This document shows, piece by piece, positions 1-64,000 of a stretch of 64,000 nucleotides of DNA. Below the pieces are notes generated by a model. The model was given only the letters and a program-made list of their open reading frames with translations. It was not told where the DNA came from and ran no database searches. This stretch comes from Thermocladium modestius JCM 10088. GTDB taxonomy: Archaea; Thermoproteota; Thermoprotei; Thermoproteales; Thermocladiaceae. The position numbers and the translations under genes were made by a program. Within the stretch, counting starts at the first letter, position 1; each line of letters begins with the position of its first letter. Location: the NCBI GenBank assembly GCA_001315925.1, contig BBBF01000001.1, forward strand, positions 1-64,000, in the 5' to 3' direction.

Positions 1-209
1 CTAGAGCCTCTTAGTGGTTACTACAATAAGTAAATAATGAAGTCTTGATTTCATCTCTTAGGTTATTTTGTTTTCTATTGGCTAGGCGCTTCAGGGTGAG
101 GATTAGTCCCTTTCGTTTAGGTCAGGATCTGTTCAGGGAGGATATTAAATACTGCTGCATACATGATCGGTAATCGCCATGAACTACGCCTCTGTCTAGC
201 CTGGGTAGC

Positions 210-240
210 TTTATAAGAAGTATACGTATAGTATACGTAT
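210..240 (+). promoter_or_regulatory. TATA box and tandem palindromic operator-like repeats
   Basis: A TATA box (tttataag, 210-217) lies 24 nt before the ATG at 241, so the transcript is probably leaderless. The space between them is filled by two perfect 11-bp direct repeats (agtatacgtat at 219-229 and 230-240). Each contains the 8-bp palindrome atacgtat. A protein bound here would cover the transcription start. No regulator is identified. Confidence 0.6.
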
Positions 241-696
241 ATGGATTATGATAGGACAAGGATAACGTTAATAGGTAAAGAGCAGGCTATTGTGGGTAGC
301 TCATTTAAGGTATTCGGCATACCTGATGAGTGTCATAGATGTAAATTGTATGATATATGCATGGGTAGATTGAGACCGGGCAGGACATATAGGATAATTG
401 ACACTAAGCCACTTAGCCTTCCCTCACCGTTCAAATGTTTATTGACTGGGGGGGACAATATGGTGCCTGTGGCAGTAGTGGAGGATCCCATAATAGTTCC
501 CCTGAAGCTGAGATACGTAGTGGAAGGCATGATAGTTACTTATGATTCATCCGCTTGCAATTGCCCTGACGTGAAATGCCCCGATTCATCGACGTTATCC
601 CAGGGAACTAAGGTTAAGGTAATTGAAATTTTATCGACGCGGAATTGCAATGGATCTAAGATATTCATGGCAAAGGTACTCCCCCCCATGGACTAG
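241..696 (+). CDS. UPF0179 family cysteine-rich protein
   Basis: The 151-residue product matches the archaeal UPF0179 family, whose biochemical role is unknown. Near the N-terminus is a paired-cysteine pattern (ECHRCKLYDICMGRLRPGR, about residues 30-48), followed by CNCPDVKC near residues 107-114, so metal binding is plausible. Length is normal for the family and the frame is intact. Two seven-base runs are in frame: one encodes Gly-Gly in LLTGGDN and the other Pro-Pro at the extreme C-terminus. The start is fixed by the TATA box 24 nt upstream. Confidence 0.75.
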   Translation: MDYDRTRITLIGKEQAIVGSSFKVFGIPDECHRCKLYDICMGRLRPGRTYRIIDTKPLSLPSPFKCLLTGGDNMVPVAVVEDPIIVPLKLRYVVEGMIVTYDSSACNCPDVKCPDSSTLSQGTKVKVIEILSTRNCNGSKIFMAKVLPPMD

Positions 697-769
697 CTCG
701 TTCTCGACAAGTTGATTTTGATTAATCTCTCATAGACTCCCCCCCTCGGCGTATAGATGGTATATTGGC

Positions 770-1514
770 TCACGTAATAGCTATGGGCATCGCATCTTTC
801 CAAAGCGAATTGAAATATGTCTTAGCTATGTCCAGTAGATAATCTTGTATTGAGTAAAGGGTTAGATATGAGTTATCGTACCTGACTGCCAGAACCACGC
901 CGTCTCCTATTATGCCTGCACCGAACATGTTTTTACGAGTTCTAGATACGATCCTTGGCGGTAATCTCTTTGCGCGGTCTATTAGGTCCTCCGTTACCAA
1001 TAGCCTTACCTCGCTATCTCTGGATACACTATCTATCATTGCTATGGCTTCGTTATCCAGCAAATCGGCGTAGGGAATAGCGATATCTATGGATGGAGCA
1101 TTCAGCGCCTTCCACATAAGCTGCTTCGTGCTCTCCAATCCCTTTACAATGAAGAAGACATCGCTTTGCGCCATTACCCTGCTTGGGTTGTTTGATTCAT
1201 ATATTAATTGAAGCGAGTCTATCAATGGCCGCGTGGATTCTATGTAATTATTCAATTTCTCAGTTATTGTTGAGAAAACCTCCCGGGGAGGTTTTGCCAC
1301 GAACTTGAGCGGCCTTCCTTGCTCGGAGTACACAACCCCCCCATCTCTGATTAAGCTAGAGAGGACGGTATATACCTTGGAGGATGGGATCCCAGCCAGC
1401 TTGGCGACTTCCTTTGCTGGCAAGACCATGCTCCACCAAAGCCATGTATGCCTTTAATTGATATGATGAATATCCTATCATCCTTGCCAGTCTCTTTAGC
1501 TCGTCGTAGCTCAT
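770..1514 (-). CDS. TrmB-like transcriptional regulator (frame broken)
   Basis: The N-terminus (MSYDELKRLARMIGYSSYQLKAY) continues after a one-base slip near 1430 into an HTH segment (KEVAKLAGIPSSKVYTVLSSL) and a winged-helix strand (VYSEQGRPLKFVA). A coiled segment and a C-terminal sensor-like domain follow. This order is typical of the TrmB family of sugar- or metabolite-responsive archaeal regulators. The start at 1514 is supported by a TATA box about 26 nt upstream near 1540. It is divergent from the radical SAM gene at 1574 and may act on the shared 59-bp intergenic region. The break is not in a long G/C run, so a consensus error is likely. Confidence 0.6.
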
Positions 1515-1573
1515 ACAACTGAGAGTATCAGTAGGGTATAAAGTTTTTAAGTGCATCGCTTATTATCGGTTTA
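1515..1573. promoter_or_regulatory. Compact divergent promoter region
   Basis: This 59-bp gap separates the divergent regulator and radical SAM genes. The stretch ggtataaagtttttaag (about 1537-1553) gives a TATA-like box on each strand, each 25-30 nt from the respective start codon. The two promoters overlap almost completely. Confidence 0.5.
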
Positions 1574-3291
1574 ATGACGGAAACAACAACCGTGGTTAAG
1601 GCGGCCGAGGAAACCACCACTAAGCTGGTGGACATATCTAGGTTCAAGATGCCGGAGAGCTATAAGAGGATACTCTTCAACGAGAAAATACAGGAGAACT
1701 GGAAGAAGCAATTCAAGTTGCCCCCCCAAGGAGTTCGCGTAATAAAGACAAGCACATCTGTTTGCCCGGTATGCAACAGGCAATTACCAATGGTAGTCTA
1801 TGAGGAGAACAACGCTATCTGGCTCCAAAAGACATGCCCTGAGCACGGAACCTTCACGGATATGTACTGGGGAGACGCGAGATGTATTACTACTTCCTGC
1901 AGTGGGATAATCCTGATTATATAGGAAAGGGAGTTGCCAATCCCAACACGACCCTCGATTACTATGAGGAGGCAGGCGGTTGCCCCCCTTCGGATGTGGT
2001 CTTTGCCCGGTTCACAAGACTAACACCGCCTTGGCAATAATAGATGTGACCAATAGATGCAATATGAAATGCCCGGTGTGCTTTGCCAATGCCTTTGCGG
2101 CGGGCTACGTGTATGAGCCAAGCCTAGAGCAGATAGAGTACATGATGAGGACGTTGAGAAATGAGAAGCCATGGGCTCCAAATGCCTTACAATTGAGCGG
2201 CGGGGAGCCCACCATCAGAAACGACTTACCGGAGATAGTCAGCATGGCCAAGAAGCTGGGGTTCGATCATGTTGAGGTCAACACTAATGGGATAAGGGTT
2301 GCCAATGAGCCTGACTTCTACAAGAAACTACTGGATGCCGGTATATCTACCCTCTACTTGCAATTCGATACTATAAATCCAACCAATAAGGGCGTGTGGA
2401 GGCATAGGCTCTATGATCCAAAGGCCTATGCTGCGTTGAAGAACAAGGTGATAGAGAATGCGAGAAAGTTAAACCACCACTCCATAGTGCTGGTAGTGAC
2501 CATGGCTAAGAACTACAATGAGAAGGACATAGGGGAGATACTGGACTTCGCCATAAAGAACAGGGATGTAGTTAGGTGGATAAATGTTCAACCCGTTTCC
2601 TTCTCGGGGAGAGCTAAGACCGATTATAGCAAGGAGGAGCTCAGGAACTTCAGGATAACGATTCCCGATGTAATAATAGAGGTGGAGAAGCAGACTGGAG
2701 GAAAGATAAGCAGATGGGATTGCGCCCCCCGTTAATTGGCCGGTGGCGTTGGGCAAGATGATGGAGGCGCTCACGGGAAAGCCGAAGCCCTTGTTCACCA
2801 ACAATCCCGTGTGCGGTGCCTCCACATTCATATACTATGATGAGGATAAGGACGATATAGTGCCGATCACTAAACTGGTCGACGTTGATGCGTTCGAGAA
2901 GGATATATGGGATATATACAATACTGCAGCTAAGGGCGGCGTCTGGACTCAGGTAGGTAAGGTTAAGACGCTGAAGTTGCTCAGACATGTTAAGCACAAG
3001 GCAGTTAAGGACTTGCTACAAGATGTATTGATATCGAAGAGCTACGAGTCCTTGGGCAAGTTCATGATGAATGTGGTTGGACTTGGCATAATGCACTTCA
3101 TGGACACCATGAACTTCGACGTACAGAGGATACAGAGATGCGATATCCACTACGCGGAGCCCGATGGCAGGATAGTGCCGTTCTGCACGCTGAATAACTT
3201 CCACAGGGAGAAGATAGAGCACTCGTTCAAGGTAGACTCCAAGGAATGGTTAAAGCTGCATCCAGGCAAGTTCCTCAGCGGCTTCGCGTAA
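1574..3291 (+). CDS. Radical SAM protein, tetraether lipid synthase (Tes/MJ0619-like), frame broken
   Basis: After joining three frame segments, the order is an N-terminal zinc-type module (CPVCN ... CPEHG), a second cysteine cluster (CGLCPVHK), then the radical SAM cluster (NRCNMKCPVCFA) with the SAM-binding GGEPT motif. This matches the Tes/MJ0619 group, whose characterised members join two archaeol chains into macrocyclic membrane lipids. Methyltransferase roles are known for relatives, so the exact reaction is inferred. Total length of about 570 residues fits. Breaks lie near 1888 (one base apparently missing from ...GCGAGATG), at the C6 run at 1983 inside the GCP(F)xCGLCP motif, and at the C6 run near 2723. 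TATA-like sequence lies about 27 nt before the ATG. Confidence 0.7.
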
Positions 3292-3412
3292 TTCACATTT
3301 TCACTCTCTTCTCTCTTGTAAAATAAATTTCTCTTGTCTTTCTCTATCTTAGGTAGTAATTCATCATTATGGCAAAGGCAAGTTTATAATTGGACTTACC
3401 TGGAGTAGGTAG

Positions 3413-4460
3413 ATGCTGGTCAAGGTTAGATCAAGGTTTGCAAATGATGTGGAGAAAGAACTGGATCTATCTCCTATTACCTTAATCACGGGATTTCCGG
3501 GAATCGGTAAATCATTGGTTTTGAAGACAATATATGGGCTTCTATCCGGGGGGGTAGGCAGTGATTTGGGATTGATCTTGATGCCAAATGGAAGTGTGGA
3601 ATTAACGTTTAATACATCTCAATGGAGGCTTGACAGGATAAACGATAGATTGTCGGCGGCTAATTTGCCGACCATCGATGGTTTGATCACCATATCGGCA
3701 TCGCGGCGTGGAAATGATGTGGAGCAAGCCGTTAAAACGGATAAGGGAACCCTATTGGTGGCGAGGAGGGGTAATGAGGGCAGCTCCATAAAGGTACCCC
3801 CCCTGGACGTCGAGGTGAAGGATGGGGGATTATTTCTATCCATTGATGGATTATCATTAAGGGGCAGCAATGCGGTTCAGTTGATAGATGAATTTGCATC
3901 CCTCTATGAGACTGTCATAGATGCCGTTAAATTCCTCGCCGATCAAGTGGGAAAATTAAGGGTTTATTACTTGGGTCCATATTTTGATTTTCCTGCAGTT
4001 TCCAGAGTAAGCGGAGAGAAGTGGTGGGTAGCCATGGCGAGCATACCGCGGAAGTTCTGGCGAGGCTAAGCATGGATCCTAAAATGGATGGTAAAATGCG
4101 GTTCTTAAGAAAGGCATTGGATCAATTGGGATATAGGAGCTACGCGCGGGTTTGATGGGAGATGGGATTGGGATAACATATGTCGATAAGAATGGCAATG
4201 AAGTAATGGGTGGGGGGGAGCTACCTTGTAGTCTGAAGAATATATTGACGATTTCAGCTCAATTAATGGCAAGCGAGTCGGGCAGCATAATTCTTGTGGA
4301 TAACATGGATTATTGCTTGGACGAGAAGTCAAGCTCAATCTTGGCATCCCTACTGAAGGAATTGGGAGCAGGTAAGCAAGTCATAGGGGGGGAAGTCCAC
4401 ACGCAGCTTCTTTCTAATCTGGTGGACAGCAACTACGTTACCATACACGCAGTTGGGTGA
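3413..4460 (+). CDS. P-loop ATPase (ABC/AAA_21-like), frame broken
   Basis: The N-terminal strand leads into a Walker A motif (GFPGIGKS, about residues 28-35). The C-terminal part has a Walker B-like strand (SIILVDN), followed by an alternating helix region as in ABC-type DNA-repair-like or AAA_21 ATPases. The middle is read in another frame (REVVGSHGEHTAEVLARLS), entered near 4012 and left near 4146. Neither slip is in a long run. A TATA box (agtttataat, about 3380) precedes the ATG by about 27 nt. It overlaps the next gene, suggesting co-transcription. The substrate is unknown. Confidence 0.55.
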
Positions 4461-4944
4461 ATTTAATGAAGACGCGGGATCCTACTTAATACGCAGGGCC
4501 CTATCAATAATAGGCTACGAGTATGGCCATAAAGTCGTGGAGAGATTGTCCGGGGGCGACTTGATGGTGGAATACAACGTGGCCCTTAACAGGATCAGGC
4601 AATTGTATTATAATGGAGAGCTGGCCTTCACAATAAGGGCAAGCGATGGTTACTTGTTGCCAACTATTCTGGGCGCTGAGTTCATAGATTCCCACGCCAT
4701 TGTGAAGAGCGATGCAGTTCCCTTCATAATGAAGGGAAGAAACGTGCCTAAATCGATGGTAATCAAGATAGTGAATGCCAGGGCAGGTATGGATATAGCC
4801 GTGCGAGATGAAACAGGGAGCTTAGTGGCGGTGGGCCGCCTGCTTATTTCGCCAGATGAATTGAAGGGAATCGGCCGGGGGGGGTTCATCATAAGGATCC
4901 GGCAGCATCGAGGAAACCGTGAACTTGTGGATGCAGGGAATTAA
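4453..4944 (+). CDS. PUA domain protein
   Basis: The C-terminal half (about residues 80-150) has the features of a PUA RNA-binding domain: a strand with VKSDAVPFIMKGRNVP, then GMDIAVRDETGSLVAVGR and a final ELKGIGRGGFIIRI. PUA domains occur in RNA-modifying enzymes and translation factors. No catalytic domain is recognisable in the N-terminal half, so a free-standing RNA-binding protein is the safest reading. The start is uncertain (TTG at 4453, overlapping the upstream ATPase stop). An in-frame run of eight G encodes Gly-Gly near the end. The 3' end overlaps the convergent nnr gene by about 56 bp. Confidence 0.55.
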   Translation: MGEFNEDAGSYLIRRALSIIGYEYGHKVVERLSGGDLMVEYNVALNRIRQLYYNGELAFTIRASDGYLLPTILGAEFIDSHAIVKSDAVPFIMKGRNVPKSMVIKIVNARAGMDIAVRDETGSLVAVGRLLISPDELKGIGRGGFIIRIRQHRGNRELVDAGN

Positions 4945-6495
4945 CAGCGATCCTCCTTATATCGTAGAACATACTCAATACCTTGGGAAGCCTCTCCACA
5001 ACATCCAGGGGGGGAGTAATGTGAAAGCCCTTATCTATAACCGCTAAATCGCCTGCCAGTCCCGTTATGAATGCCGCCAGCGAGGCGGCCTCCATTAGGT
5101 CCCCTACCTTAAATGCTAAGTATGCAGTCACCCCAGTTAATACATCCCCTGTTCCTCCTATGGACATTCCTGGATTGCCGGTCTTATTTAGCCTCAACCT
5201 AGAACCATCAGTTATTATATCCGTATTGCCTTTTAATAATACTATGGTGCCAGGAGCTTTTTCGGCAACGATCCTCTTGGCTACCTCTCCCCTCTCCAGA
5301 GGTCCGTTGGGACTTCGATGCCGAAGAGGCTCTTGAATTCACCTGCATGGGGGGGAGTAACCACGGCCCCCTTCAATAGGTCCAGCCTACCGGCATTTCC
5401 CACGGCCTTTATTGCATCCGCATCTATCACTACCTTCTTGCCCAGCCTCATCGCGTTCTCCAACAGCCTTAGAACGGCTGTTTGGGTTTCGGCCGATAGC
5501 CCTAAACCAGGCCCTATGGCTATTACGTGGAATTTCTCCATCTCGTTCGTTAATGACTCCACGTGGGAATTATCCAGGGAATCCCCCCTCCATTGGAATC
5601 GCTATTATGCTGGGATTATTGCTCCGTATATCGTGCGCTACATCGCGTGGGGGGGTATATACGTTCACCAAATCCGCTCCCATGGTTAATGCCGATAATG
5701 CAGTGAACATCACGGCGCCCGTATAATACTTGGACCCCCCTATCACCATTATTTTACCATTGTCTCCCTTCTTGGAATTAGCGTCCCTCCCATAGTTGAG
5801 CACCAGCATGTCGCCAGCGCCCACCAGCAGCTCGGCATCCTTGGGGGGGATTCCTATATCAGCCACAATTAATTCCCCACAAAGCTCTTGGCATCATCTA
5901 AGAGCAGGCCGCGTTTTGCCTTATGCATTGTAACGGTCACTGCCGCCTTAACCGCTTTATCCCATACCTTGCCTGAATCCGAGTCCAGGCCGCTTGGAAC
6001 ATCAACCGCTATTTTCGGCGCGGGAGACATATTCATTAAATCGATTGCAGTTGCATGCGGTTGCCTCAATCTACCCTTGACCCCCCCAATTCCCAAAACA
6101 GCATCTATTATCACGTGAGGCCACCTCAATATCAAGTCTTGATTCATCAATAGAGAATACTCGTCACGCGCCTCTACTATCTTGCACCTCAATAGGTTAT
6201 TACATAACCTTACATTCGTCGCCGCCGGTTCCTCAGAGACATCGCTGACCCTGCCCAGCAATATTATGATAACATTTCTACCGCTATTCAGCAAATACCT
6301 AGCGGCCACTATACCATCGCCTCCATTATTGCCTAACCCCGCTACCACAGTTATATTGTTGGCAGTGGGATACCTGCTTAACGTGGCATCGGCGACGGCC
6401 TTTCCCGCGTTCTCCATCAATATTCTATCGCTTATGCCTAAATATTCGGCATTTTTATCAAGGATTCTCATTTCGAGCGTGGATATTCCATCCAT
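4889..6495 (-). CDS. nnr: Bifunctional NAD(P)H-hydrate repair enzyme Nnr (frame broken)
   Basis: The N-terminal half is the epimerase (YjeF_N): MENAGKAVAD, GLGNNGGDGIVAARYL, and VDVPSGLDSDSG. The C-terminal half is the ADP/ATP-dependent dehydratase (carbohydrate kinase fold): GKIMVIGGSKYYTGA, AIGPGLGLS, VIDADAIKAV, TPPHAGEF and GTGDVLTG. Together they repair hydrated NADH and NADPH. The ATG at 6495 is preferred to an in-frame TTG at 6513 because a TATA-like element lies 21-31 nt upstream at 6516-6526. Breaks occur near 5876 (a G4 where G5 restores the frame), at the G6 run at 5583-5588, and near 5297 without a run. All domain motifs survive once joined. Confidence 0.85.
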
Positions 6496-6607
6496 GCCAT
6501 TACAGTTTAGCAAGAAAATATAACGTTTTTCTGCATTTAATTCTGACCTCTTCTAAGTCAGATGAAAATGAAATAAATAATCTAAAATATCCATCCCTGC
6601 TATTTGA

Positions 6608-7087
6608 TCATGCCATGTGCAATATCAATGCATCTATCGAATATGGTCCGGCGCCCGTTAACAATAGCAGCAGTGCTCCTATGAAGAACAAGAAATCTAG
6701 ATCCCATCCTGGGCTCATGCCTGTTGGGAAGGGCTTCTTCATCTTGGTAGAGCTGACGATGACAAGCGCTATGAAGTATATAGTGAGTACAGCTGCGGTG
6801 AAACCAGTTAATAATCCAAGCATTATCAGTATAGATCCGAAGAACTCTATTATTGCGGCTAAGTCAAAGAGAGCTGGCGCTATTCCCATTTGTCTCATTC
6901 CGTCTCTTAGTTGTTTTCTCATGCGTGATCCAGGCATCTTAGGTATGCCATGAGGTAGCAGCGCTATTCCATATAGTACTCTGAACAATAATAGGCCTAC
7001 GCCGGCCGCGCTGGGTCCCCCCCTGGTTGGCGTTACTATTGTTTGTAGTAGTGCATATATTGCGTACATCATGTAATTGATTGCCAT
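6608..7087 (-). CDS. DoxX-family membrane protein
   Basis: The 159-residue protein has four hydrophobic segments and the DoxX pattern: LLLFRVLYGIALLPHGIPKM near the N-terminus, then a loop with RKQLRDGMRQMG, FFGSILIMLGLLTG and a final PFPTGMSPGWDLDFLFFIGA. DoxX proteins include the small subunit of thiosulfate:quinone oxidoreductase, but most family members have undefined roles. No DoxD partner is present next to it, so a redox role is only a possibility. The frame is intact. A TATA-like tttttaaa lies about 27 nt upstream. Confidence 0.75.
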   Translation of the reverse strand: MAINYMMYAIYALLQTIVTPTRGGPSAAGVGLLLFRVLYGIALLPHGIPKMPGSRMRKQLRDGMRQMGIAPALFDLAAIIEFFGSILIMLGLLTGFTAAVLTIYFIALVIVSSTKMKKPFPTGMSPGWDLDFLFFIGALLLLLTGAGPYSIDALILHMA

Positions 7088-7338
7088 AATGAAGCATTAA
7101 ATTATTTGTTTAAAAATTTTGATCCAGCTTCCCAGAAATTGGAGGATAATTCCATACCATGCTTATTGTCGATACTCAACGCGGTTGCCTAGCTTAATTT
7201 CATAATTGTTAAGATAAATATTTAAATTATGATGTCCCCCCCAATTTACCGGCAATAACGAAAGCCTAATTCCTCACGATAAGGCAGGCCCCTGAAGGTA
7301 TTAATCTATTAGAAATATTTAATCCAACATAGCACTGA

Positions 7339-7432
7339 TGCGGCCGGTGGGATTTGAACCCACGATCTACGGCGATCCCCCCCTCAATGGATGGGGGGGC
7401 CGTCGTCCTGATCCAGACTAGACTACGGCCGC
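7339..7432 (-). tRNA. tRNA-Gly (CCC) with an 18-nt intron
   Basis: Acceptor strands gcggccg/cggccgc pair perfectly, with A73; the D-arm is gtctagtctggatcaggac and the T-arm gtgggttcaaatcccac. The anticodon stem acggc/gccgt encloses 25 nt. These fold as a bulge-helix-bulge: 3-nt bulge (atc), 4-bp C/G helix, 3-nt bulge (cca), then a short intron stem around attga. Removing 18 nt leaves a seven-base loop made only of C, giving anticodon CCC. That loop lacks U33 and purine 37, which is abnormal, so the anticodon is provisional. CCA is not encoded. A TATA-like aaatttaaaacc lies about 30 nt upstream. Confidence 0.8.
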
Positions 7433-7663
7433 CTATAGCCCTTCTTTGCGCAGCGGTTTTAAATTTTTCTTAAGGGCATTATCCTGATAATGGGCATTAA
7501 TTACACAGCTAAATTAAAGGAGATATCCAAAATTAAATGGAAGAAAAGTGTTTTCACGTGGCGAGTCACTCCGTCGTTGGGCGGTTTCCCGTTTCCATCC
7601 TTGTCTGCTTCTTAAATAATATTAAGGCATCTGGGCTTTAAACTATTGATTTAGAGTCGCCGC

Positions 7664-9008
7664 TCAAATTGACTTCAATATCCTCATCAATGACTTAGAT
7701 GTCAAGCTATTTATCTTTATGGTATTCTTTGATGAGTCCAACATTGATTGTTCATTCCCTATTAGAACTATTTTGAAGTTGCTGAATACTGCATGCACGT
7801 GATCTATGGCTCCATGCTTAATTCATCATCTTCCCCCCCATCTGTTATCAATACTAATTTATAATCGCGTAGCTGTGGATTATGGCGTGCATCCTCGATC
7901 GCCATATTGATGGCTGCCGTTATGTTGGTTCCCCCCCCAATGGAATTAAGGAGAGAAGCGTTCGTATTATCTCTTTCTTGTCATTTATGGCTGGATATAC
8001 TTGTTGGTCGAAGAACCTCACCTGGACATCGCTTCCCTTCATTACCAACACTGTGGCCAAGGCAGTGGCCCAAGTTATCTTGCTGATGCTTCCGAATTCG
8101 AATAGATTATTCATCACGGTATAGAACATACTTCCGCTTTTGTCTATTAATAAGTATACCTTGGGCTTCTTCGTGAGCTTCCTTTCATTTACGAATAGAT
8201 TATTCGTGCCCAGCTTATATGCGTATAGCGGCTTGGATACTTGTATCAATGCCCGTTCGGATGGTGTCATATCCTTGAGCTCCGAGACCCTGGATATTTT
8301 CTTTATTCCAGACGAGATTCCCTTATATACTACGTCCTCCTCCTTAAGAAGATCCATTTTATACTTAACATCCGATATTAGTCTAACCAGCGAGTCCAGC
8401 ATGTTTATTAACCTGCTTCTATATGGATCTATATCGGTGCTCAACAATATATCGGCCACCTCATGGCCTATGGAGCTGCCCATCACCGATTTAACCTTCT
8501 TTACGGTATCGTTTATGCGCTTCATATTGCCGAGATAAAAGGAAAGGAGGGAGCGTATTTCGCGCTCTATCATTGCCTTATTTTCCTTGGAGCTGGACGA
8601 TCTGTTCGTCGAATCATTGACCATTTGCTTGAATCCCTCGCTTCTCTCCATTTTGCTCAATAAATTGCTATATATCCTCAGCATTTTGACTGCCATTAAT
8701 TTGGAGAGATGGCCATTTAGTTTGGTTACCTTGGTTGCCTCGCTATATTGATCGCTGCGTATGTAGGTGTTGAGTAAATGATACCACAAAATATCTTTTT
8801 CATCCTTTAAATCCTTCAATTGACCGAGCATTGGGCTTCTGTAGTGGACGTAGAATGAATCTATTAAGGTATATTGGGGTATTTTCTCCATTCCAGGAAC
8901 CATGCGTCTTTTTCCCTCCATGAATACCTCGCGTAGTCTATACCGGGCCAGCTCATCATCATAATCCACATTCAACAATAATCCGCGTTTGCGGCGTTCA
9001 TCGCTCAT
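7664..9008 (-). CDS. VWA domain protein of a MoxR/VWA pair (frame broken)
   Basis: The long N-terminal region is helical and charged. The C-terminal part is a von Willebrand A domain with the MIDAS motif DKSGSM (in YLLIDKSGSM), then the GGGTNITAAI strand-loop and a LVLITDGGED strand. Such proteins pair with MoxR ATPases as metal- or complex-maturation chaperones. Two slips are needed: at the run of eight G (7931-7938), where nine would give the usual GGGT, and near 7818 where one base seems missing. The C-terminus then runs to 7664. The gene overlaps the end of the MoxR gene upstream, so they form one operon. Confidence 0.75.
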
Positions 9009-10132
9009 TCTCTATCATCTCCTCCAACCTCTCTATGTTATTCATCATCTCTTCTATTTCATATTTATATAAGCTGAAGAGGCTTTTATCCCACTTGGCC
9101 TTGATCGAATTTATGGCGTCCCTCGCATCTATCAATCTTATCCTCGCATCATCCACTATGTTGTTGCTCAGCAATGCCTTGGCCTCGCTTATTAGGTCAT
9201 TTATCTTCAATAATTCCTCCGGCATATGGGTCATCGAGAACGCCTCGTATTCGCTTAATTGATCCTTGTTTTGAATCAAATACTTTGCTATCCTTATGGC
9301 AGCTACCTTGAGCATCATCGGCGTCACCTCCTCCGGCTTGAATCCTTGAATCATAAGTAATGAGTATGCATAGAGTGGTATTTTGATCCTGGTCCTATTG
9401 CTAATGGGTATATGCTCCACGTAATCCGCTATAACTGGAGAGAGTACCTTAGATATATCCTTTGTATTGTTTAAGATGAAATTAGTCTGCATTTGGTTCA
9501 GGATTTTTATATCATCCATGGACGCCATTGGCCTCAGCTCGTCCAGTTCCCGCCTCAGGTTCCAACCCTTCACCAGCAGGTTCTCGGTGTCCTCAGGCAA
9601 CACATATTCTGTGAAAGTCCTCATGGGAAATCTATCGAATAATGCCTGCAGCTCCTCTTCATCGGGTACCCTATTGCTGCTGCCAAATACGGCCCAGGTC
9701 TTGACGGGGATTATCTTGTCTCCATCGTACACTACCCTCTCATTTAACAAAGAAAGCAAGGTATTCAGTATCGCGCTGGATGCATTGAATATTTCATCCA
9801 GCAGCGCCAGCTCGCTCTCCACTATGGAATTTGCATATATGCGCTCCACCTTTCCTTCAAGTAACTTCGCTATATCTATGGGCCCTAATATTTCTTCCAA
9901 GTCGGTGAATTTGGTTAATTGCCTGTAAAACCACTTAATATTGGTTAACTTAGACAGGGTATAAACTAACGTGGTCTTAGCGGTGCCTGGGGGGGCCGAC
10001 CAGTAGGAAGTTTTCCCTGGAAATCATGGATATCAATATGCCGGCCACCTCATCGGAATATTTATAGAACATATCGTTAAGCTTCTCATTGATGTTCTTC
10101 ATCCGGTTTATTGAATCGTTGATGTTTTGCAT
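8998..10132 (-). CDS. MoxR-family AAA ATPase (frame broken)
   Basis: Motifs in order are Walker A (VGPPGTAKTTLV after correcting one base), a Walker B region (ELALLDEIFNASS), NTLLSLLNER, sensor region VFGSSNRVPD and the FDRFPMR arginine segment. This is the MoxR group of AAA chaperones, encoded just before its VWA partner. The break is exactly inside Walker A, at a run of seven C (minus strand; 9989-9995) where six give GPPGTAKT. ATG at 10132 is chosen because a TATA-like element (cttatattt) lies about 28 nt upstream. About 2 kb spanning this gene and most of the VWA gene contains no G/C run of six or more. Confidence 0.8.
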
Positions 10133-35745: not shown

Positions 35746-36339
35746 TCACTTGGTTTTGTTGAATCTCTTGCTTCTTCGCCTTTCGATCAGCGAGGCAATA
35801 TATAACGCTGGGGGGGCGGTCAACGAGATCCAGTAAAGCAATGTAGGTTGGCTGTCCACCATCAAGGCTAAGGACTCACTGCCCATATTTATGACGTATT
35901 GCTCGCTGCCGATTATCAGCAATGGATAGGAGGAGAAACCACTCAAGTTAGTTCCCAGAGTTCCAAGGAATGGAGCCAAGCGAGGTAATGCTATGGCGAG
36001 CACCAGGTATATTATTACTGGGTCCAAAATATATAATATGGGCAACCAAAACATGGTGGAATAATTACCGGGTTCATCACTGAAGATCGATTCATATAGG
36101 CGGAACGCCAATACTGTGAGGATATAGAGGGCGAATCCCATTAACAACACGGTAATTACCCTGGATATCAATAGATATTTGCCGAGAAGCATAATGGATA
36201 AATAAAAGGGCGAATCCTTTATCGCAATCAATTCGCCCATGCTATACGACCACCAATAATGAACAGGATAGATAAGGGAGATTATTACAATTAGGGCAGA
36301 ATCCACGTAATAAATAACGGCCAGGGGGGGATACCTCAT
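35746..36339 (-). CDS. Hypothetical membrane protein
   Basis: The 197-residue product has about four to five hydrophobic helices (DSALIVIISLIYPVHYWW, YLLISRVITVLLMGFALYIL, LPILYILDPVIIYLVLAIAL, LLYWISLTAPPALYIASLIE) and a basic tail (RRRSKRFNKTK). No family recognised. The start lies right beside the insertion sequence. Confidence 0.45.
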   Translation of the reverse strand: MRYPPLAVIYYVDSALIVIISLIYPVHYWWSYSMGELIAIKDSPFYLSIMLLGKYLLISRVITVLLMGFALYILTVLAFRLYESIFSDEPGNYSTMFWLPILYILDPVIIYLVLAIALPRLAPFLGTLGTNLSGFSSYPLLIIGSEQYVINMGSESLALMVDSQPTLLYWISLTAPPALYIASLIERRRSKRFNKTK

Positions 36340-36344
36340 CTGAC

Positions 36345-36518
36345 CTCCTCCCCCCCGCCTTGAGGGGGGGTGGGGGTTCCCTCTGGGCGGTTCATTGGTT
36401 CGTGGTGCACCGCCATCACCCTCACCGCTTCACAGCTGGCGGGTGCGTAAAGCACCACCCCCCCGCTCCGCTCGTCCAGCGGTGAACCACGGGCTGGGTC
36501 TTCAACCCATTACCCCCC
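36345..36518 (-). ncRNA. Probable omega/reRNA and right end of the IS605 element
   Basis: This structured, G/C-rich stretch follows the tnpB stop on the same strand. It contains complementary segments such as ggttcaccgctgg and a terminal hairpin around ccccgcc-ttga-ggggg. In IS605 elements the TnpB guide RNA comes from exactly this position. Assignment rests on position and structure only. Confidence 0.4.
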
Positions 36519-37700
36519 CTATCCCTCGCCGAGGGGGAGCCCTCGACCCGCGGTTCTTAGGGACTCGGGGATATGTAGGATGTTCATCGACCCATTCAAG
36601 TCCGCATTTATAACCTTCCCCCCCATGCGGGGACACTTGAAAAGACCACGCTTAATACGCCCACCCTCGTGGGCTTCCCCCCCGCATAGGGAGCAAGTCT
36701 TAGAAGTATAAGACTCATACACCCTAACAACCCTTATCCCCCCCAATTCCACCCCCCCAACCTCCTCAAAACGCTTAATAACGTAGTCGTAGTTCCAGAA
36801 GTTCACAGTGAGCTTATTACCATGGTTTTGTCCTATCTCCTTAGGATAACCTATAACAACCTCGCTTACCCCCCCTTCTCCTTCAACCCCCCCTCCATTA
36901 CCTTCCTAACCATGCTATTCAAGGCATGTTTTAAGAACCTCTTCCTCTTATCGTAAAGCAGTTTCAGCCTCCTACTCCTCCTTTGTCCATGCCTTGCCAA
37001 TAGCTTCTGCACGCTACTTATCCTCCTACTGAAGTACTCGTATTGGGAGAGTGCTCCACCACCCTTGAATAGGCACCAAGTGCCGTCCTCAACATAGACA
37101 GTTGCCAAATTAACGATCCCCAAATCCACGGAAGCCCTCAAGCTACCCTCAACTCTCTCGTTATTCTCAACCTCCACTGGAATATGGGCGTACCAACTCC
37201 TCCTCGCCCCATCACAAATTACCTCCAACCTACCCTGTTTCCCACGCCACTTAGGTTTCCCTTTAAACTTGAGGCTTAGCTTGAAGTCCTTTAGGTGAAT
37301 GAGTTGGTTAGTCTCATCAATGATGTACCTATCATTCCTAACGAGAATAATCAATCTGTAATTGCCGTCTTCATCCTTCCAGTACCCTGGAGGTCTTGGT
37401 TTGAACCACTTCGGTAGTTTACCCTCCTTCTTTTCCTTGATTAGGGAGAAGAAGCTCCTCCAGTCCTCAGCGTTCTTCCTAGCCACCTGCTGGGCATTGA
37501 CCTTCAGCGCTTGTTTGTACTTCTCGTAGACCTCCTTTTCGGTTCTGGCGAGGTCCACCCCCCCTCCCCCCCTTCTTGAATTGTTGCGTTCTTAACCAGT
37601 TCACCTCGTTCCAACACTTGGCTGTTGCTATAGCCAGTTCCTTTAGCTTCTCGTGGGTGTTCTTGTCCACGACGAGTTTAACTACGTTAGTTCTCTTCAT
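36519..37700 (-). CDS. tnpB: TnpB RNA-guided nuclease of IS605 (frame broken)
   Basis: It begins MKRTNVVKLVVDKNTHEKLK with an N-terminal helical region. RuvC-I is RASVDLGIVNLATVYVEDG. The middle segment EVVIGYPKEIGQNHGNK has the GYPK form seen in many crenarchaeal TnpB proteins. RuvC-III is VINADLNGSMNIL. The zinc ribbon reads CSLCGGEAHEGG ... CPRMGGKV, so the last expected cysteine is missing. Slips lie at the paired runs near 37560-37570 and at seven-base runs near 36870 and 36890. Activity of this copy is doubtful as assembled. It overlaps tnpA by 14 nt. Confidence 0.75.
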
Positions 37701-41847: not shown

Positions 41848-44702
41848 TCAATCATCCCAGAAAAGCCTGGTCCTTATATATTCCCTCTCCGCCTCCATTA
41901 TGGATGCGTAGAGATCCTCCTCGCTATGAGTCTTTGTCAATACCTTCCTTATTGCTGATGAGGATCCCACTCCATGCGCCGCCAATGCAATCAATCCATG
42001 GAGGCCGAATTGAAGGATCACAAGGGATCGCTGCCTAAGCACCTCTAGGAATTGCCTCTCTTGGGGGGGAGAGAGGTCTCTTGTTGCGGAATTTGTTTAT
42101 GACTTTGATCGCATAATCCACCTTCTCATCCCTGTACTTCAACATGGAAATGGTCCTCAAACCACAATGGGGGGGGCACCTCAATGTGTCCTCCTTCATA
42201 TATTTTACCTTTGCTGTGAAGTTCCATCCGCACTTCATGCATATCAGCGTTACCTCATTTTCCATTATTCTCCTCTTTATTACATCCATTAGCGCGGATT
42301 TGGGCACCTCATCTACGGTGAAGTCCAGCCCCTCTATCTCTATTATGGGAAGCGCTAGGGAGCTGAATTCCGTGACTTGCTTTATCGATACGTTTATCCC
42401 TCCATCTCTTACCCCCCCTCGGACCAGATCCATCACGGCACTTACATCCAGCTTATCTACCATTATTTCCTTAATTACCTCCTCCTCCAGAATTGACCCT
42501 CTATACGCCTCCACTAGCCGCGATATGTTCACGTCTATGGGTCCCCGCGGCAACACGCCCATTCTCCTAGCGACGTGTATGAATCTGTACCTAAACAGCT
42601 TGCTTGCCTTTACCCCCCCATCCCACAGCCTCTGCTTGACATCCTCATCGCTTGCCATGAGGGCGTCTCGAATTGCCTCTGCCGGTATAGGCTGGCGGGC
42701 ATTAGGAGTATCCTATACGGGTCTGCCCTGTACCCCCCCACGCTCACCATGAATCTTTGAAACAAATACCTGGATAGGTATAGCCCGAGCGCCTCATTGC
42801 CTTTGCTGCCGCCGCAGCTATGTATTACGATTGCTCTTTTCCCCGCCTCCACCACTATGTTGTGCGGCGTTGGTATGTCTAAATCCACATCCTCCAATTC
42901 CCTGGATAATGCGTCTAGGTCCTCCTCGTTCAAGCTGACGTCGCTTCCCGCGTATTCGTGAATTGCCTTGATTCCCTTCCTCATTAATTCGGCCCTCAAC
43001 TCACATACCTCGCTTGCCACTTGCCGGAGAACCGGTATTTCCTCTCCTATCCATGCCGGGAGCGCGCCATTAAGGCTGGCGGCGGGCTCCATGTACACCC
43101 TCTTCTCTTCTTGATTTATCGATAAAACATTCCAAAGCTTGGCCGATAATATTATCTTTGTGCCGGGCTCTATAGTTGAGACGAACTCCTCATCCAACTC
43201 CCCCCCACCGCCTTATTGGTGACGTAATCCACGGCTAAGTAATGCTGCTCATCAGGTATCATGGATGCCCCCCCCTCCACGTAATACCTTATGGATCCCC
43301 CCCTCCTGGGGTAAATTACATCCCCCCCATCTATTCCTATCAACCTTCGTTCCACTAGGAAATCCACCAGCCTCTTAACCTCATCTATGCCGAGCGATGC
43401 ATAAGGATGTGCTCGACTTGCTGTTTCATATATATATTCAATGGTAGCGCTCCTGCCATCGGCCTTGGCATCCATCAGCATTCCCAATGTTTGATGCGCC
43501 AACACATCCATTGCCTTCTCGTGGTACTCCACATCCTTCTCCAGCAGGCCCTTCTTGGCGCTGACGGCTATCACCACGGACTCCAAGTAATCGTCGAAGT
43601 CGCTGGCCACTATGACTCCCCTAGAGATCAATCCAACACCATGGCCGCTCCTTCCAACTCTTTGAATTAATCGCGTGACTTGTCTTGGACTCATGTATTG
43701 GATCACCTTGCTTATCCTACCCACATCTATGCCCAGCTCCAGACTGGATGTAGTGACCACGGCATCCACCTTTCCCCCCCCTCATCAATTCCTCGACCCC
43801 CCCCTCCCTTCTTTCCTTGCTTAGAGAACCGTGGTATACCTCCACGTTAAGTCCGAAGATCCCCCCCCTTCAACCTATTCCCAAGAAGCTCAGCCGTGTC
43901 CCTAGTGTTAGAGAACAACAACACAACCCCCCCCGCCTTCCTTTATCAATTCGCTGAGGGCATGCAATCTGCCATAAGATTCCGGCGTCATATCCCCCCC
44001 AGGCGGATCGGGGTGCTCCTGGGGTCTCCGGACGCTTAATCGCATTTCCTTTATTGCCAAGGACGATATTACTTGGACGGGCCTCGCGCCGCCCACGTAT
44101 TTAGCGACCAAATCCAAGTTGCCTATTGAAGCGGATAGAGCTATTCTCTGGAAATCACCCGCTAAATTGACCAACCGCTCCAGGGACAGGGAGAGCTGAA
44201 TGCCTCTTTTATCGTTCACTAATTCATGCACTTCGTCTATTATGACCCACTTGACGCTCCTCAACCATTTACGCATGGATTTATTTATCAATAGAAATTG
44301 AAGAGATTCCGGGGGTGGTTATCAGCATGTGAGGCGGCTCCTCCCTCTGCCTCCTCCGCTCCCTCTGCGGCGTGTCCCCCCCGTGCCTAACCCCCCCACT
44401 CGAAGGCCCAGCAAGCCGAAGAACTTCTCCAATCTATTCAATAAATCCCTATTCAATGCCCTCATGGGAGTTATGTAGAGGGCATGTATGCCTACGCCCC
44501 CCCTCTCCTCCAGCATTTTAGATGCCACTGGCAGCACCGCCGCCTCGGTCTTGCCGGTCCCCCCCGTGGGGGGGCTGGAGATCAAGACATTCTTTCCATC
44601 CAATATTATTGGGATGGCCCTTGACTGTATATCGGTTGGCCTTGAGTAACCCATTCTCCTCAATGCTTCCCTAACCTCAGGATGTAGCAGCTCAAACACC
44701 AT
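41848..44702 (-). CDS. lhr: Archaeal Lhr-type superfamily 2 helicase (frame broken)
   Basis: The joined length of about 950 residues is typical of archaeal Lhr. In order: Q-motif SRPTDIQSRAIP, Walker A region SSPPTGGTGKTEAAVLP, YITPMRALNRDLLNRL, DEVHEL box (VIIDEVHELVNDKRG), ALSASIGN, VVTTSSLELGIDVG, and QRVGRSGHGVG of motif VI. The C-terminal Lhr core follows, then a cysteine module (CMKCGWNF ... CPPHCG) and AEREYIRTRLFW. Walker A and the zinc knuckle each carry an extra residue at in-frame runs. Slips near 42040, 42655, 43195, 43775, 43865, 43930, 44300 and 44395 mostly sit at runs of six or more. Lhr unwinds branched DNA and RNA-DNA duplexes in repair. Confidence 0.85.
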
Positions 44703-44789: not shown

Positions 44790-46061
44790 CTATTTGAAGG
44801 GCGATTTAGACATATGGGCCGCCTTCCCCCCCTCAGCCTCCCACATCCGAATCAATTCGTTTAATTTAGCCATGCGCTCCCCACCAACTATGCCGGTCTT
44901 TATGAGCGGGGGGGATTGGAAGCCCAGCGCCACGTGGGCCAGTAATTCCCGCTCTGTATCCCCGGACCTGTGAGACACCACTATGGTATAGCCATTCTCC
45001 TTGGCTAGCTTAACGGTTTCGAATGCCCTGCTAAGCGTGCCGACCTGGTCCACCTTTATTATTATGCCGTTCCCGGCTTTCTTTTCTATTCCCATCCTAA
45101 GCCTGGACGAATTGGTGACGAACAGATCATCCCCCCCCACTATCAAGCACTTGCCCCTCAACGCCGCCGTCAACTCCGCGAAACCGTCGAAGTCCTCCTC
45201 ATGAAGTGGGTCCTCGAAGTAAACTATGTTGTACTCATCAACTAACTGCTTTATGAATTCCATGTGCTCCTCGGCCGATCTCTCCTTGCCTTCACTCCTG
45301 TACTCGTATTTTTCCCCGTTCCACATCCCGGAGGCAGCCGCATCTATACCTATACCTATGGCGAACCCCTTTTCCTCGGCCTTCTTTTTTACAACGGTAG
45401 ATAGTATGCTCAATGCCTTTATGGTGGATATCTTGGCAGTCCAAGCACCCTCATCATTCTTGCCCCCCCCAGCAAATGTCGGGTCCTCCTTCGCAAGTTC
45501 CTTTCCCACCTCCTTATGTATCTCCAAATTGGTGCTAACGGCGGAGTATATATCCGGCGCACCGTATGGAATCACGAGGAACTCTTGAAAGTCAGGCCCC
45601 CCCAAATTCCTGGAGTGCTTCCCCCCCCTCCTATTACATTACTCACAGGATATGGAAACGATGATGCCAAGCTCCGCCCAAATATTTGTATAATGGCATT
45701 TCCAAGTAATTCGACGCGGCCGATGCAGCGGCCAGGGATGTGGCGAACGCGGATGCTCCTCCTATTCTCGCGAAATTCGGCGTGCCATCCACCTCCTCCA
45801 GCTTGGCATCTATTCCTCCCTGATCCACAGCATCCATCCCAATTAGGTCAGTCGCTACCCACCTCCTGAACATATCTATGGCAGCATCTACTCCATCTTG
45901 AGGCAGGAACTGCACCTCATGCTTCCCCTTGGAGGCGCCGGCGGGGGCGGTTGCCAGCCCCCTAACCCCCCCGCTCTCCAGGATTAATTCTACCTCGACG
46001 GTTTGATCCCCCCCCGTCCAGTGAAGGATTTCCTAATTATCGCGTCATCTATTGAAGACAT
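44790..46061 (-). CDS. eno: Enolase (phosphopyruvate hydratase), frame broken
   Basis: The glycolytic enzyme interconverts 2-phosphoglycerate and phosphoenolpyruvate. Features include ATAPAGASKGKHE, LLKY-type LYKYLGGAW, NVIGGGKHSRNLGGPDFQEF, DAAASGMWNGEKY, IVYFEDPLHEEDFDGF, IVGGDDLFVTN, IIIKVDQVGTLSRAFE and VVSHRSGDTERELLAHVALG, with the catalytic lysine and metal-binding Asp/Glu residues in place. About 423 residues. Breaks lie near 45652 (tgg-gca, one G missing), at the run of eight at 45611-45618, and at runs near 45965 and 46012. Upstream is the divergent top6B gene. Confidence 0.9.
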
Positions 46062-46191: not shown

Positions 46192-47788
46192 ATGGCCACT
46201 GACGTAAAGTTCGAATCATTATCGCCATCGGAGTGGTTCCGCAGAAATAAGGAATTGGCGGGCTTCGCCAACCCATCTAGGGCGCTCTATCAAGCCGTTA
46301 GGGAGCTAATAGAAAATGCATTAGACGCAACGGAGACCTTTGGGATCCACCCATTCATAAAGGCCTACATAAAATACGCTGAGAGGGATAATTGGCTATC
46401 CATATATGTAGAGGACAATGGGATTGGGATACCTAAGGATGAGATACCCAATGTTTTTGGTCGAGTATTCTATAGCTCCAAGTACAAGGTGAAGCAGCAC
46501 AGGGGGGGCATCTTCGGATTAGGGGCTAAAATGGTGATTCTCTATGCGCAATCGACCACCAATAAACCGATAACTGTGATAAGCGCCCAACAGGGATCGG
46601 ACAAGGTATATAGATTCGACATAATGATAGACACGCTCCGCAATGAGCCGCTTATAAAATACCAAGAGGAGTGGGATAACAAGTACAAGTGGCATGGAAC
46701 CGCGGTTCACGTGGTGATGGAGGGCGATTGGTTGAAGGCGAAGCACAGGGTGGAGGAGTATATCAAGAGAGTGGCTATGGTTGCGCCGTATGCGAGATAC
46801 ACGTGAAGGAGCCTGACGGCGCGGTCATTGATATAGAGAGGGTAACTTTGACTTTGCCCATTCCCCCCCGAAGGAGGGGGCTTCCCCCCCATCCCAAGAG
46901 CGTGGACATAGAGGCGGTCAAGCAGTTGATATCCAGGAATGGTGACTCCCCCCCCGTGTCGGAGTTCATGGTGGAGAACTTCGATGGGGGGGTGGGGGGG
47001 GAGGAGACTGCGATGAACTTCTTGCAATCCATAGGAATAGATCCGGGGAGGAATATAAAGGAATTGAACACCGATGAAATAACCCACCTGGTCACCAAGA
47101 TGAGGGAGTACAACGAATGGAGAAGGCCTCGAGCGGATTGGTTGAGTCCGGTGGGCACGGAGCTCTTGGAGCAAGGCATCCGCAAAACTCTGGAGCCGGA
47201 GGCCGTGTTCGCCACCACCAGGAAACCATCATCCTATTCCGGCAATCCCTTCATAGTGGAGGCAGCGGTGGCTTGGGGGGGAGGAAAGATAGAGCCCAGC
47301 GACAGGCCGATAATATATAGATTCGCCAACAAGGTTCCCCCCCTACTATATGACGAGGGAAACGATGTCGTGAGGCATGTGGTGGACGAGGTGGATTGGA
47401 GTCTATACAAGGTGAAATTCCCCGCGCCCTTGGTTGTCGTGGTGCACATATGCTCCACCAAGATACCGTATGCCAGCGCAGGTAAGGAGCAATAGCCGAT
47501 GTTCCCGAGATAGAGAGCGAGGTCAGGCTAGCCATCAGGGAGGTCGCGCGTCGCCTCAGGGTGTATCTCTCCAGGAAGGAGAAGGAGAAGGAAGCAATGA
47601 TGAGGTATGCCATGTTCACCATGTTCTCGCGAGAGGTGGCGTCATCCATAGCATCCATATTGGGGATTAAGGAGGATCAAGTCCTCAATAAATTGAAGAA
47701 GGTCATTTCAAGAAAGATTAAATACTTGGAAGCCATAGAGGAGGTGGAAGGAGATGGAGAGCAGCAGCAACAGCAAGGCCAAGCCTAG
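46192..47788 (+). CDS. top6B: DNA topoisomerase VI subunit B (frame broken)
   Basis: The ATPase subunit of the type IIB topoisomerase. GHKL motifs are VRELIENALDATE, VEDNGIGIP and the ATP lid RGGIFGLGAKM, then ITVISA and the transducer domain with YRFANKVPPLLYDEGNDVV. The lid has RGGIFGLG where the crenarchaeal form is RG(M/I)FGLG, and the extra Gly sits at a run of seven G (46502-46508). Slips near 46798 (APYA-EIHVKEPDG) and near 47490 join three segments, giving about 530 residues. It overlaps top6A by 35 bp. TATA gatttattaagg lies about 28 nt before the ATG. Confidence 0.9.
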
Positions 47789-57424: not shown

Positions 57425-57470
57425 GATGGTTATCTTTCCATGCCTCGATTATGTTTCTTAGATGGGAATT

Positions 57471-58400: not shown

Positions 58401-58458
58401 ATTTATATTAATTGAACGCTATAGGAAGTTTTAAAACTAATCGCCCACGGATGGCTCA

Positions 58459-59335: not shown

Positions 59336-59377
59336 AGCGGATTAATTTAGAAATATTAAGGGATTCATTGGAGTACT

Positions 59378-59856: not shown

Positions 59857-61214
59857 TCACTTCACCTCTACCAACAACTCCTCCGGTATCTGCTTTATAA
59901 GGCCTATCTTCATCAATTGATCTAGGGAATTCCTCGATGAGTTTATTATGTTCTTGGCCCTCTCGTACTCCTCGTTCCTAGTCGTACTCCTCCGCGCCAC
60001 TCCCACCTCCACGGCCTTAACCGCCGCCGCAGCGGCAGCCCTCGGATAGATCTCCCACTCCGTCATGCTGGGAATTATGTAATCCTCATTTATTCCCCCC
60101 CTCTCCTCCGCATACCTGGCCAGCTCTTGGGAGACGGCTATGATCATTTCGTCAGTTATGGTTCTAGCCCTCACATCCAAGGCTCCTCTGAACACCGCTG
60201 GGAATATCAAGCTATTATTGACTTGGTTTGGATAATCGCTTCTTCCGGTAGCCACTATCCTGGCCCCCCCCGCCTCCTTCGCTTCCCACGGCCACATCTC
60301 CGGCACTGGGTTTGCCAGCAGGAACACTATTGCATCCTTATTCATGGCCCTAACCCACTCCTTCTTTACAACGCCCGGCCCTGGAGTGGATGCCGCTATC
60401 AAAACGTCTGCTCCGCTGACGGCTTCCTCCATGGTCTTCGCCCGTCGGGAGTTAGTCTTCAACGCCAAATCGTACTTCCATGGATGGCTCAACATCAAGT
60501 GATCCATATCGTCTCTCTCGGCGTGCAGCGGCCCCCTTGCTATCGACTAGTATTATGTTGCCAGGCTTGGCGCCCGCCGTCATTAAGAGCCTGGCGGTGG
60601 CTATGTTGGACGCCCCCGCTCCATATAGCACAATGGTTGTATCTTCTATTCTTCTATTAGTCAGCTTCAATGCATTGTATAACCCAGCCAAGCTGGCCCC
60701 CCCGGCCGTTCCTTGCTGATCATCGTGCCACACAGGTATAGCCAGCTCCTTCCTTAGGGTATCCAATAAATAGAAGCATTTGGGGGGACTCTATGTCCTC
60801 CAGGTTTATGCCGCCGAACGCTGGCTCTATTGCCTTGGCTACCTGCACGAACTCCTCTTGCGTCTTGGCCCTTATGGGCATCGGTATGGCATCCACTCCG
60901 CCCAGGTACTTGTATATAAGGGCCTTCCCCTCCATGACCGGCATAGCGGCCTCCGGCCCGACCTTTCCTAGGCCCAGCACCCTGGTTCCATCAGTTAACA
61001 CCACTATGGCGTTCCACCTCCAAGTTAAGTCGAAGGACTTATCAGGGTCCTTGGCTATCTCGAGCGAGACCCCAGCCACGCCGGGAGTGTAGTATATTGA
61101 GAAGTCCTGTAAGTTAGTCACGGGAACTTTCGGAATGGCGGAGATCTTTCCGCCGAATAGCTTGGCCACCTCTATTGATACCTTATACCATGACTTTGTC
61201 TTGTCGGCACTCAT
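59857..61214 (-). CDS. NAD(P)-dependent malic enzyme (frame broken)
   Basis: It oxidatively decarboxylates malate to pyruvate. Motifs: [110 protein letters not shown] and [22 protein letters not shown] carries an extra Gly at a run of seven. Slips near 60780 (run of six) and 60515 join three segments into about 450 residues. ATG at 61214 has a TATA-like element (gcatattaatcc) about 27 nt upstream. Confidence 0.85.
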
Positions 61215-61292
61215 TGACAAACATACAATTAAGTGGATTAATATGCTTTTCGTTGATCGACGCAATAATAATAATCAATAATCGATAATCTT

Positions 61293-62388: not shown

Positions 62389-62805
62389 TTACTTCTCATC
62401 CTCTATGTTATTTGTTGTGTTTTTATCCATTATTATAATGTATGGTATGGAGTCCACCATTAATACCAGGAGCGGTCCATCCCACATTATGAAATCTATC
62501 TTTTTCTTAAAATCCTCCAACAAAGCGTACTTCTTCTTTATATAAGCTATGGCCTCGTTTATTATCAACATTTCTGTGTTTTTGCTTGCCTTATAGTAAA
62601 TCCTTGCATTGAATATCTCCTGTCCGCTTGAATTCTTGAATACTATCTCCTTAAATGCCTCATTGGAGGGAAGAGGGTCTTCTCCACTGTAATTCTTGGT
62701 CACCGCACTCAAACTCATCAATTCACGCCTAAGCGATGCCAATTCCGTATCTACATATGCTCTCAACTCCTTAGAGTTCCTGAAATGCTTGACGATAACG
62801 CGCAT
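62389..62805 (-). CDS. Hypothetical protein, 138 residues
   Basis: An N-terminal coiled segment (SKELRAYVDTELASLRRELM) precedes a beta-rich middle (EIVFKNSSGQEIFNARIYYK) and a C-terminal strand pair (GPLLVLMVDSIPYIIIMD). Intact and without G/C runs of six. I do not recognise the family. Confidence 0.45.
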   Translation of the reverse strand: MRVIVKHFRNSKELRAYVDTELASLRRELMSLSAVTKNYSGEDPLPSNEAFKEIVFKNSSGQEIFNARIYYKASKNTEMLIINEAIAYIKKKYALLEDFKKKIDFIMWDGPLLVLMVDSIPYIIIMDKNTTNNIEDEK

Positions 62806-62989
62806 TTACCTGTTCAGTTCTATCAATGTTTAAAAAATTTGCCTATACCCTCAAACTTCCCAATAACGCACCACCACATTCAAACAAGATAATTCATTGA
62901 ATGCAAATAATAAAGAATTAACATGAATTATCAAAGGAATGGACCAATCCCAGGCCTAAGGCCAGCTCAATTACGGCATTAATGGTTTT

Positions 62990-63069
62990 TGGCGGACCCG
63001 GTGGGATTTGAACCCACGACCTACGGCTCCGAAGGCCGCCGCTCTGATTCCATACTGAGCTACGGGTCC
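62990..63069 (-). tRNA. tRNA-Arg (TCG)
   Basis: The acceptor ggacccg/cgggtcc is perfect, with G73 and CCA encoded. The D-arm gctc-agtatggaatc-agagc and T-arm gtggg-ttcaaat-cccac are regular. The anticodon stem gcggc/gccgt encloses cttcgga, giving anticodon TCG with U33 and G37 in place. No intron. A TATA-like aacttaatac lies about 25 nt upstream. Confidence 0.9.
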
Positions 63070-63127
63070 AGGAGGTTAGCTTCTGGCTCGTATTAAGTTT
63101 TTCCAGGGCTCCTTCGGCATGGCTGGA

Positions 63128-63685
63128 TCACGGCATGGCCCTCCAATGCTGGATTACTAATGGGAGGGCTCGCCTGAAGTACTCCCTGAAGCTCGGCAGC
63201 TCCATGAGGGGGGGACCAACTATCTCGGGCCGGCACTCCCCCCCTAATTGCTTTATGGCCTTATCCATTATTACGCCGGGCGCCAGAATCAAGAGAAGCA
63301 AGCTTTTAGGGCACTTGCTCCTCACGTAACTGGAGAGAAGCGGCTCCCCACTCTCTATAAAGGATACATCTGGCTTTAGACCTCTTAATGTGAGTGGCTT
63401 ATTGGATCCATGAACAGCTACTAGATCAACTCCCAACTCATTAATGAAATCCACGAAGCCAGGCCACTCCATGAGCGGTGGGACGCCGGACGCGCATGCA
63501 GCCTCCGCCCTCTCATAATCGGCTCCCCCCCTGGCCACGTAGAGCGGAATGCCGTAGCCAGGTTCCAAGCATTGAAATGAGTATTGGATTTTAAGGGACT
63601 CGGCGAAATCCGCCACCGCCCTCAAGTACCGAGGATCCCTCGAACCGTGAAGTATTATCCTAACCGAAGAGGCTGGATAAGCCAC
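63128..63685 (-). CDS. CbiX/SirB-like protein (possible chelatase)
   Basis: The N-terminus VRIILHGSRD-PRYLRAVADF has the HGSR motif of sirohydrochlorin chelatases, and a second SGVPPLMEWPGFVDFINELG and VAVHGSNKP follow. CbiX-type enzymes insert cobalt or nickel into sirohydrochlorin. The rest is less typical, so confidence is moderate. GTG start at 63685, overlapping the uL10 gene end by 26 bp. Seven-base runs give ARGGADY and QLGGECR. 185 residues, intact. Confidence 0.45.
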   Translation of the reverse strand: MAYPASSVRIILHGSRDPRYLRAVADFAESLKIQYSFQCLEPGYGIPLYVARGGADYERAEAACASGVPPLMEWPGFVDFINELGVDLVAVHGSNKPLTLRGLKPDVSFIESGEPLLSSYVRSKCPKSLLLLILAPGVIMDKAIKQLGGECRPEIVGPPLMELPSFREYFRRALPLVIQHWRAMP

Positions 63686-64000
63686 CCAAGGCCTCCTCCT
63701 CTCCCTTTTCCTCCTTCTTCTCCTCCGCCTCCTCCTTCTTCTCCTCAGTCGCTGGGTTCGCCGGCTGGGCTTGTTGCGGAGTTGAGACTTGTATGCCGAG
63801 CTCCGGCGCCTTGCTCGCTATTGCGGATGCCAAAGCATTCGCCTGCGCCTCCGCCTTCGCCAGTATCGGCGCCGCGGATTCTTCCGTGAATATCAACGCA
63901 TTCACAGCCAAGTTAATGGACTCCGCCACGGCCTTCCTTATGTAGACCGGCATCAATTCGGGCAGCGGATAGACGGCATTGACGGCTAGGTTATACGCTT
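63660..64000 (-). CDS. Ribosomal protein uL10 (P0), C-terminal part
   Basis: The gene runs off the window. The visible part (AYNLAVNAVYPLPELMPVYI, AVAESINLAVNALIFTEESA) is the archaeal uL10 helix region that binds P1/L12 dimers. It ends in the acidic tail EEKKEEKGEEEALGGLSSLF-G that recruits translation factors; LSxLFG is the signature shared with P-proteins. The usual tail is ALxxLFG or similar. Here EEEALGGLSSLFG may carry one extra Gly. Confidence 0.85.
   Translation of the reverse strand, partial: AYNLAVNAVYPLPELMPVYIRKAVAESINLAVNALIFTEESAAPILAKAEAQANALASAIASKAPELGIQVSTPQQAQPANPATEEKKEEAEEKKEEKGEEEALGGLSSLFG

Follow-up and report, generated by a model that had tools for sequence, protein, structure and literature searches.

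Homopolymer indels in nanopore consensus sequences are confined to homopolymers, are worse in G/C runs than in A/T runs, break reading frames and lower apparent completeness (PMC8486125, PMC11232133). On the whole, longer homopolymers are slightly underestimated (PMC8486125). A second described class comprises strand-specific miscalls, in which the wrong call is found mainly in forward or mainly in reverse reads and assemblies near error-prone homopolymers vary by strand (PMC10039527). The consensus errors of a third class are restricted to certain taxa: with Dcm methylation, native DNA is unlike the training data, and the errors are tied to CCAGG/CCTGG (PMC6591954). The CycloneSEQ literature yielded nothing useful.

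We describe here a stretch of 64,000 nucleotides (the window) from an archaeal draft genome (G000; 1.92 Mb in 118 contigs, completeness 47.6%), in which runs of G or C are very often exactly seven bases long. The errors resemble the first class in their confinement to homopolymers, their G/C bias, their broken frames and the low apparent completeness, but in place of slight underestimation there is a regular overcall from 4–5 to 7–8, and A/T runs are normal. Strand dependence is shared with the second class, which however consists of rare plasmid cases, whereas here thousands of sites fall in alternating blocks of ~120 bp across the genome. Restriction to a taxon is shared with the third class, but here any G/C run of at least 4 can be concerned, and a modification is hypothetical. 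We conclude that the sevens are very probably a read and assembly artefact, in which runs of at least 4 were overcalled on one strand and one strand was kept per short block. One point against this reading is that a regular 4 to 7 overcall is unusual beside published nanopore profiles.

Run lengths in the window and the draft

The original prediction had counted 26 G/C runs of at least six in bases 1–10,000 of the window, about 20 of them exactly seven; our recount was identical (4, 20 and 2 runs of lengths 6, 7 and 8). It had also described the distribution as bimodal, with fives rarer than sevens, and this holds for the whole window, where G/C runs of lengths 4, 5, 6, 7, 8 and 9 or more number 105, 36, 20, 161, 33 and 0. 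An independence model on base composition gives about 226, 53, 12, 3 and 0.6 runs of lengths 4–8. Lengths 4 and 5 are thus below expectation, and length 7 is ~55-fold above it. A/T runs of lengths 4–8 (261, 84, 18, 3 and 0) show a smooth, normal decay.

The 161 sevens and 33 eights, spread over 1..64000, were assessed by these histograms and by alignment to a good-quality relative in the same genus (G001). On the evidence of that alignment, they appear to be overcalls, mostly of runs that are truly 4–5 bases long.

A total of 424 kb of the draft held 1643 sevens, 473 eights and one longer G/C run. The signature was found in all readable contigs sampled (contig C118 is N only), throughout a G+C range of 0.44–0.61. 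Across that range, sampled in contigs C12, C6, C40, C50 and C60 (L082, L117, L122, L123 and L085), sevens are proportionally more frequent in the contigs of high G+C. As a check, the original prediction had proposed comparing G/C with A/T histograms in this genome and its relatives; only G/C proved anomalous, and the nearest relatives are normal.

Within the window, a tRNA-Gly(CCC) gene on the minus strand at 7339..7432 (ARAGORN; Rfam tRNA model, 54.9 bits) has both a C7 and a G7 inside it. In the ordered run list, the G7 at 36364..36370 falls among C7 and G7 runs densely clustered from 36324 to 36887. An OrfB/IS605-type transposase lies at 36330–37600, within one of the densest C7 clusters. 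Stretches of it match several G001 contigs, and this insertion element is apparently frame-broken itself.

True lengths in the 16S locus and in protein genes

True lengths were read from the 16S locus by comparison with G001 at sites with exact five-base flanks. All 40 true threes are written as threes. Among 27 true fours, 15 are written as seven, 10 as four, 1 as six and 1 as three; of six true fives, four became seven and two are unchanged. The longest runs, one true six and one true seven, are both written as eight. Lengthening from 4 to 7, 5 to 7, 6 to 8 and 7 to 8 means that no constant +3 is applied and that the output saturates at 7–8. C4 and G4 runs conserved among relatives are written as seven in this locus while their flanks agree. 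A search of the draft for a 23S rRNA gene was negative, although 16S sits at the beginning of contig C22; the rRNA operon is probably cut by the contig end.

Protein-coding DNA aligned to G001 gives a similar picture, with sevens longer by 3 in 48/79 and by 2 in 17/79, eights longer by 3 in 10/19, sixes longer by 1 in 7/10 and fours unchanged in 50/55, while A/T runs mostly keep the same length. The missing fours and the surplus sevens are the same sites. Lengthening to 7–8 hits roughly half to two thirds of the true G/C runs of at least 4, with fours becoming 7, fives 7 or 8 and sevens 8. An indel count taken from DNA alignment was set aside as mostly alignment noise at ~70–78% identity.

Since +3 is the commonest change among the sevens of coding DNA, a selected tract length might be considered, either as phase variation or as selection for in-frame additions of three bases. 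However, the change from 4 to 7 is also dominant in the rRNA locus, which has no reading frame, non-coding sequence is affected as much as coding sequence, and frame-breaking changes are common; we give such selection practically no credence. In-frame +3 selection is ruled out by the same 4 to 7 change in the rRNA locus. Phase-variable tracts are likewise ruled out, the sevens not being locus-confined: they occur in every readable contig sampled, including in rRNA, tRNA and housekeeping genes.

Strand coherence

Each run was given a sign, +1 for a lengthened G or a correct C and −1 for a lengthened C or a correct G. The mean product of signs is 0.71 for pairs of runs less than 12 bp apart; the correlation falls off with a decay length of 124 bp and is near zero beyond 400 bp. 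For pairs less than 100 bp apart the observed value is 0.447, against 0.025 ± 0.019 (z = 23) when the labels lengthened and correct are permuted within base and contig. In each block of ~120 bp, mostly the G runs are lengthened and the C runs correct, or the reverse.

The lengthened state was associated neither with the coding strand (p = 0.29) nor with coding status (p = 0.66). Flanking bases hardly predict it (classifier AUC ~0.54), and no common motif was found around the tracts. Fixed consensus windows, sought at multiples of 200–1000 bp, showed a weak boundary effect at 200 and none at 500 or 1000. The error tracks the sequenced strand, not the gene or the context, and strand coherence is the decisive test for an artefact; it is not evident how a biological mutation process could give rise to strand-coherent blocks.

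The requirements on a mechanism are that lengthening needs a true run of at least 4, yields 7–8 and affects mostly one base per block of ~120 bp. In single-molecule reads, runs of one base as read, either G or C, would be overcalled, which amounts to one strand; for each short block the consensus builder would then retain the version of one strand, without averaging the two. Two populations would result, correct runs of 4–5 and overcalled runs of 7–8, in place of a smooth spread. Reads from single molecules are suggested because the sequence past a run is shifted, not garbled. If a block is derived mainly from one strand's reads and one base is overcalled, local lengthening of G only or of C only is expected.

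The blocks of ~120 bp are short beside long reads, and the consensus step therefore plays a part. The consensus or polishing program might even be at fault alone, with the reads right on both strands; besides the short blocks, the stereotyped output of 7–8, as from a mis-set length model, would suit this. A program that sees both strands would nevertheless have no reason to make G-only and then C-only blocks, for which a strand difference in the reads is needed, and we consider a fault of the program alone very unlikely.

Other genomes of the phylum

The motif HGGGGGGGH was counted on both strands of whole genomes. The draft has 7958 copies, versus 43 in the nearest good-quality relative. In the phylum (~560 genomes counted), only two others stand out, G376 with 4803 copies and G388 with 3857, and all the rest have at most 340. 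These two drafts (loci L104–L109), both 67% complete, come from a different genus of the family and share both the 7/8 histogram and the strand coherence with ours. The signature is absent from complete congeners. In relatives of the draft, G/C runs of seven or eight number zero in samples of 20 kb each from G003, G005 and G006 and zero in 57 kb of G001.

Compared with the complete genome G005, the 16S portion of the G376 locus differs mainly in G/C run length. At the conserved 16S site GGGGATTAGATACCCC, our draft has G4...C7 and G376 has G7...C5, that is, opposite strand states.

The absence from complete congeners bears on the idea of real tracts, kept at an equilibrium length by mutation in a lineage whose repair is altered. 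The bimodal histogram with its second peak at seven is truly in the file, but an equilibrium predicts smooth lengths shared with close relatives, and what is seen is a 4/7 bimodality with a gap at 6, no run of 9 or more in the window and normal nearest relatives. Further against it, family-conserved rRNA sites are affected, conserved genes are broken, and the G/C state alternates in ~120 bp blocks unrelated to genes. We regard an equilibrium as extremely improbable.

The original prediction had offered three options. Its assembler or basecaller artefact, for which it had named true runs of four or five bases as the sign, is borne out indirectly, by conserved rRNA and protein-gene sites that are 4–5 in relatives and 7–8 here, whereas mutational equilibrium and selected tract length are both contradicted by the rRNA sites, the frame breaks in conserved genes and the ~120 bp strand-coherent blocks that ignore genes.

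Affected drafts make up 3/25 genomes of one family and none of ~535 others in the phylum. This restriction would not be expected from a platform fault alone, and it counts against the artefact reading and in favour of a native DNA modification, such as a methylated C or a modified G within runs of at least 4, that would derail a signal-based basecaller to 7–8 on one strand; a modification not previously described would thereby have been mapped. A modified GGGG/CCCC would be in keeping with the dependence on strand and with the abrupt onset between lengths 3 and 4, and taxon-specific nanopore consensus errors from methylation are known (PMC6591954). On the other side, the family's 22 other genomes lack the signature, although a different sequencing method may have been used for them. 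Nor are the affected genomes set apart by two DNA methylase families, PF01555 and PF00145, which is weak evidence either way, given that possible difference in method. The family clustering is explained equally well by one shared data set, and a modification seems to us unlikely. If the one-family restriction does reflect DNA modification, the artefact is itself a lead.

Under both the artefact and the modification readings, the sevens are absent from the actual DNA. Their surplus is a quality warning, not new biology. The run-length histogram together with the strand-coherence test, in which neighbouring G and C runs are found in opposite states, reveals the fault from the assembly alone, without reads.

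Frame breaks in conserved genes

Our draft and the two other affected drafts each stand as the genome of a species, with genes, completeness values and rRNA lengths distorted; pseudogene counts, protein families and probes derived from them will be wrong accordingly.

Frame breaks in the window were scored gene by gene by tblastn of G001 ORFs, and the presence of a G/C run of at least 5 near each junction was compared with random 60-mers. Among the 32 genes with G001 homology, 15 are split, by 25 frame changes in all. Such runs lie at 22 of the 25 breaks, versus 19% of random 60-base stretches. Frame breaks at runs fit the low completeness of the draft.

A C8 at 45621..45628 lies at a frame break (junction 45601–45680) in a minus-strand gene that is probably enolase, the Pfam domain Enolase_C being found in 44790–45605. 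On the basis of the G001 ORF o12, we infer that the two enolase pieces are probably one gene. A second break against the same G001 ORF (junction 45986–46036) has a C8 at 46008..46015. The malic enzyme gene, also on the minus strand, is broken at a G6 at 60782..60787 (junction 60755–60809), where both flanking ORFs carry malic enzyme domains, and again at a C5 at 60532..60536 (junction 60508–60565). In a minus-strand DEAD/H helicase gene a C7 at 43200..43206 (junction 43178–43228) leaves Helicase_C and DEAD_assoc in separate pieces.

Scripted shortening of the runs alone did not restore long open frames. Shortening is insufficient because the true length differs from run to run, because lengths 5 and 6 carry off-by-one errors as well, and because the draft contains a few other indels; the gene-by-gene count of breaks proved the more telling test.

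The three breaks away from G/C runs are at 46769–46819, 47464–47514 and 42669–42719. Two of them are against the G001 ORF covering the topoisomerase VI subunit B region and one is in the DEAD/H helicase. Frame breaks of this kind, with no G/C run beside them, indicate that the draft has further indel errors.
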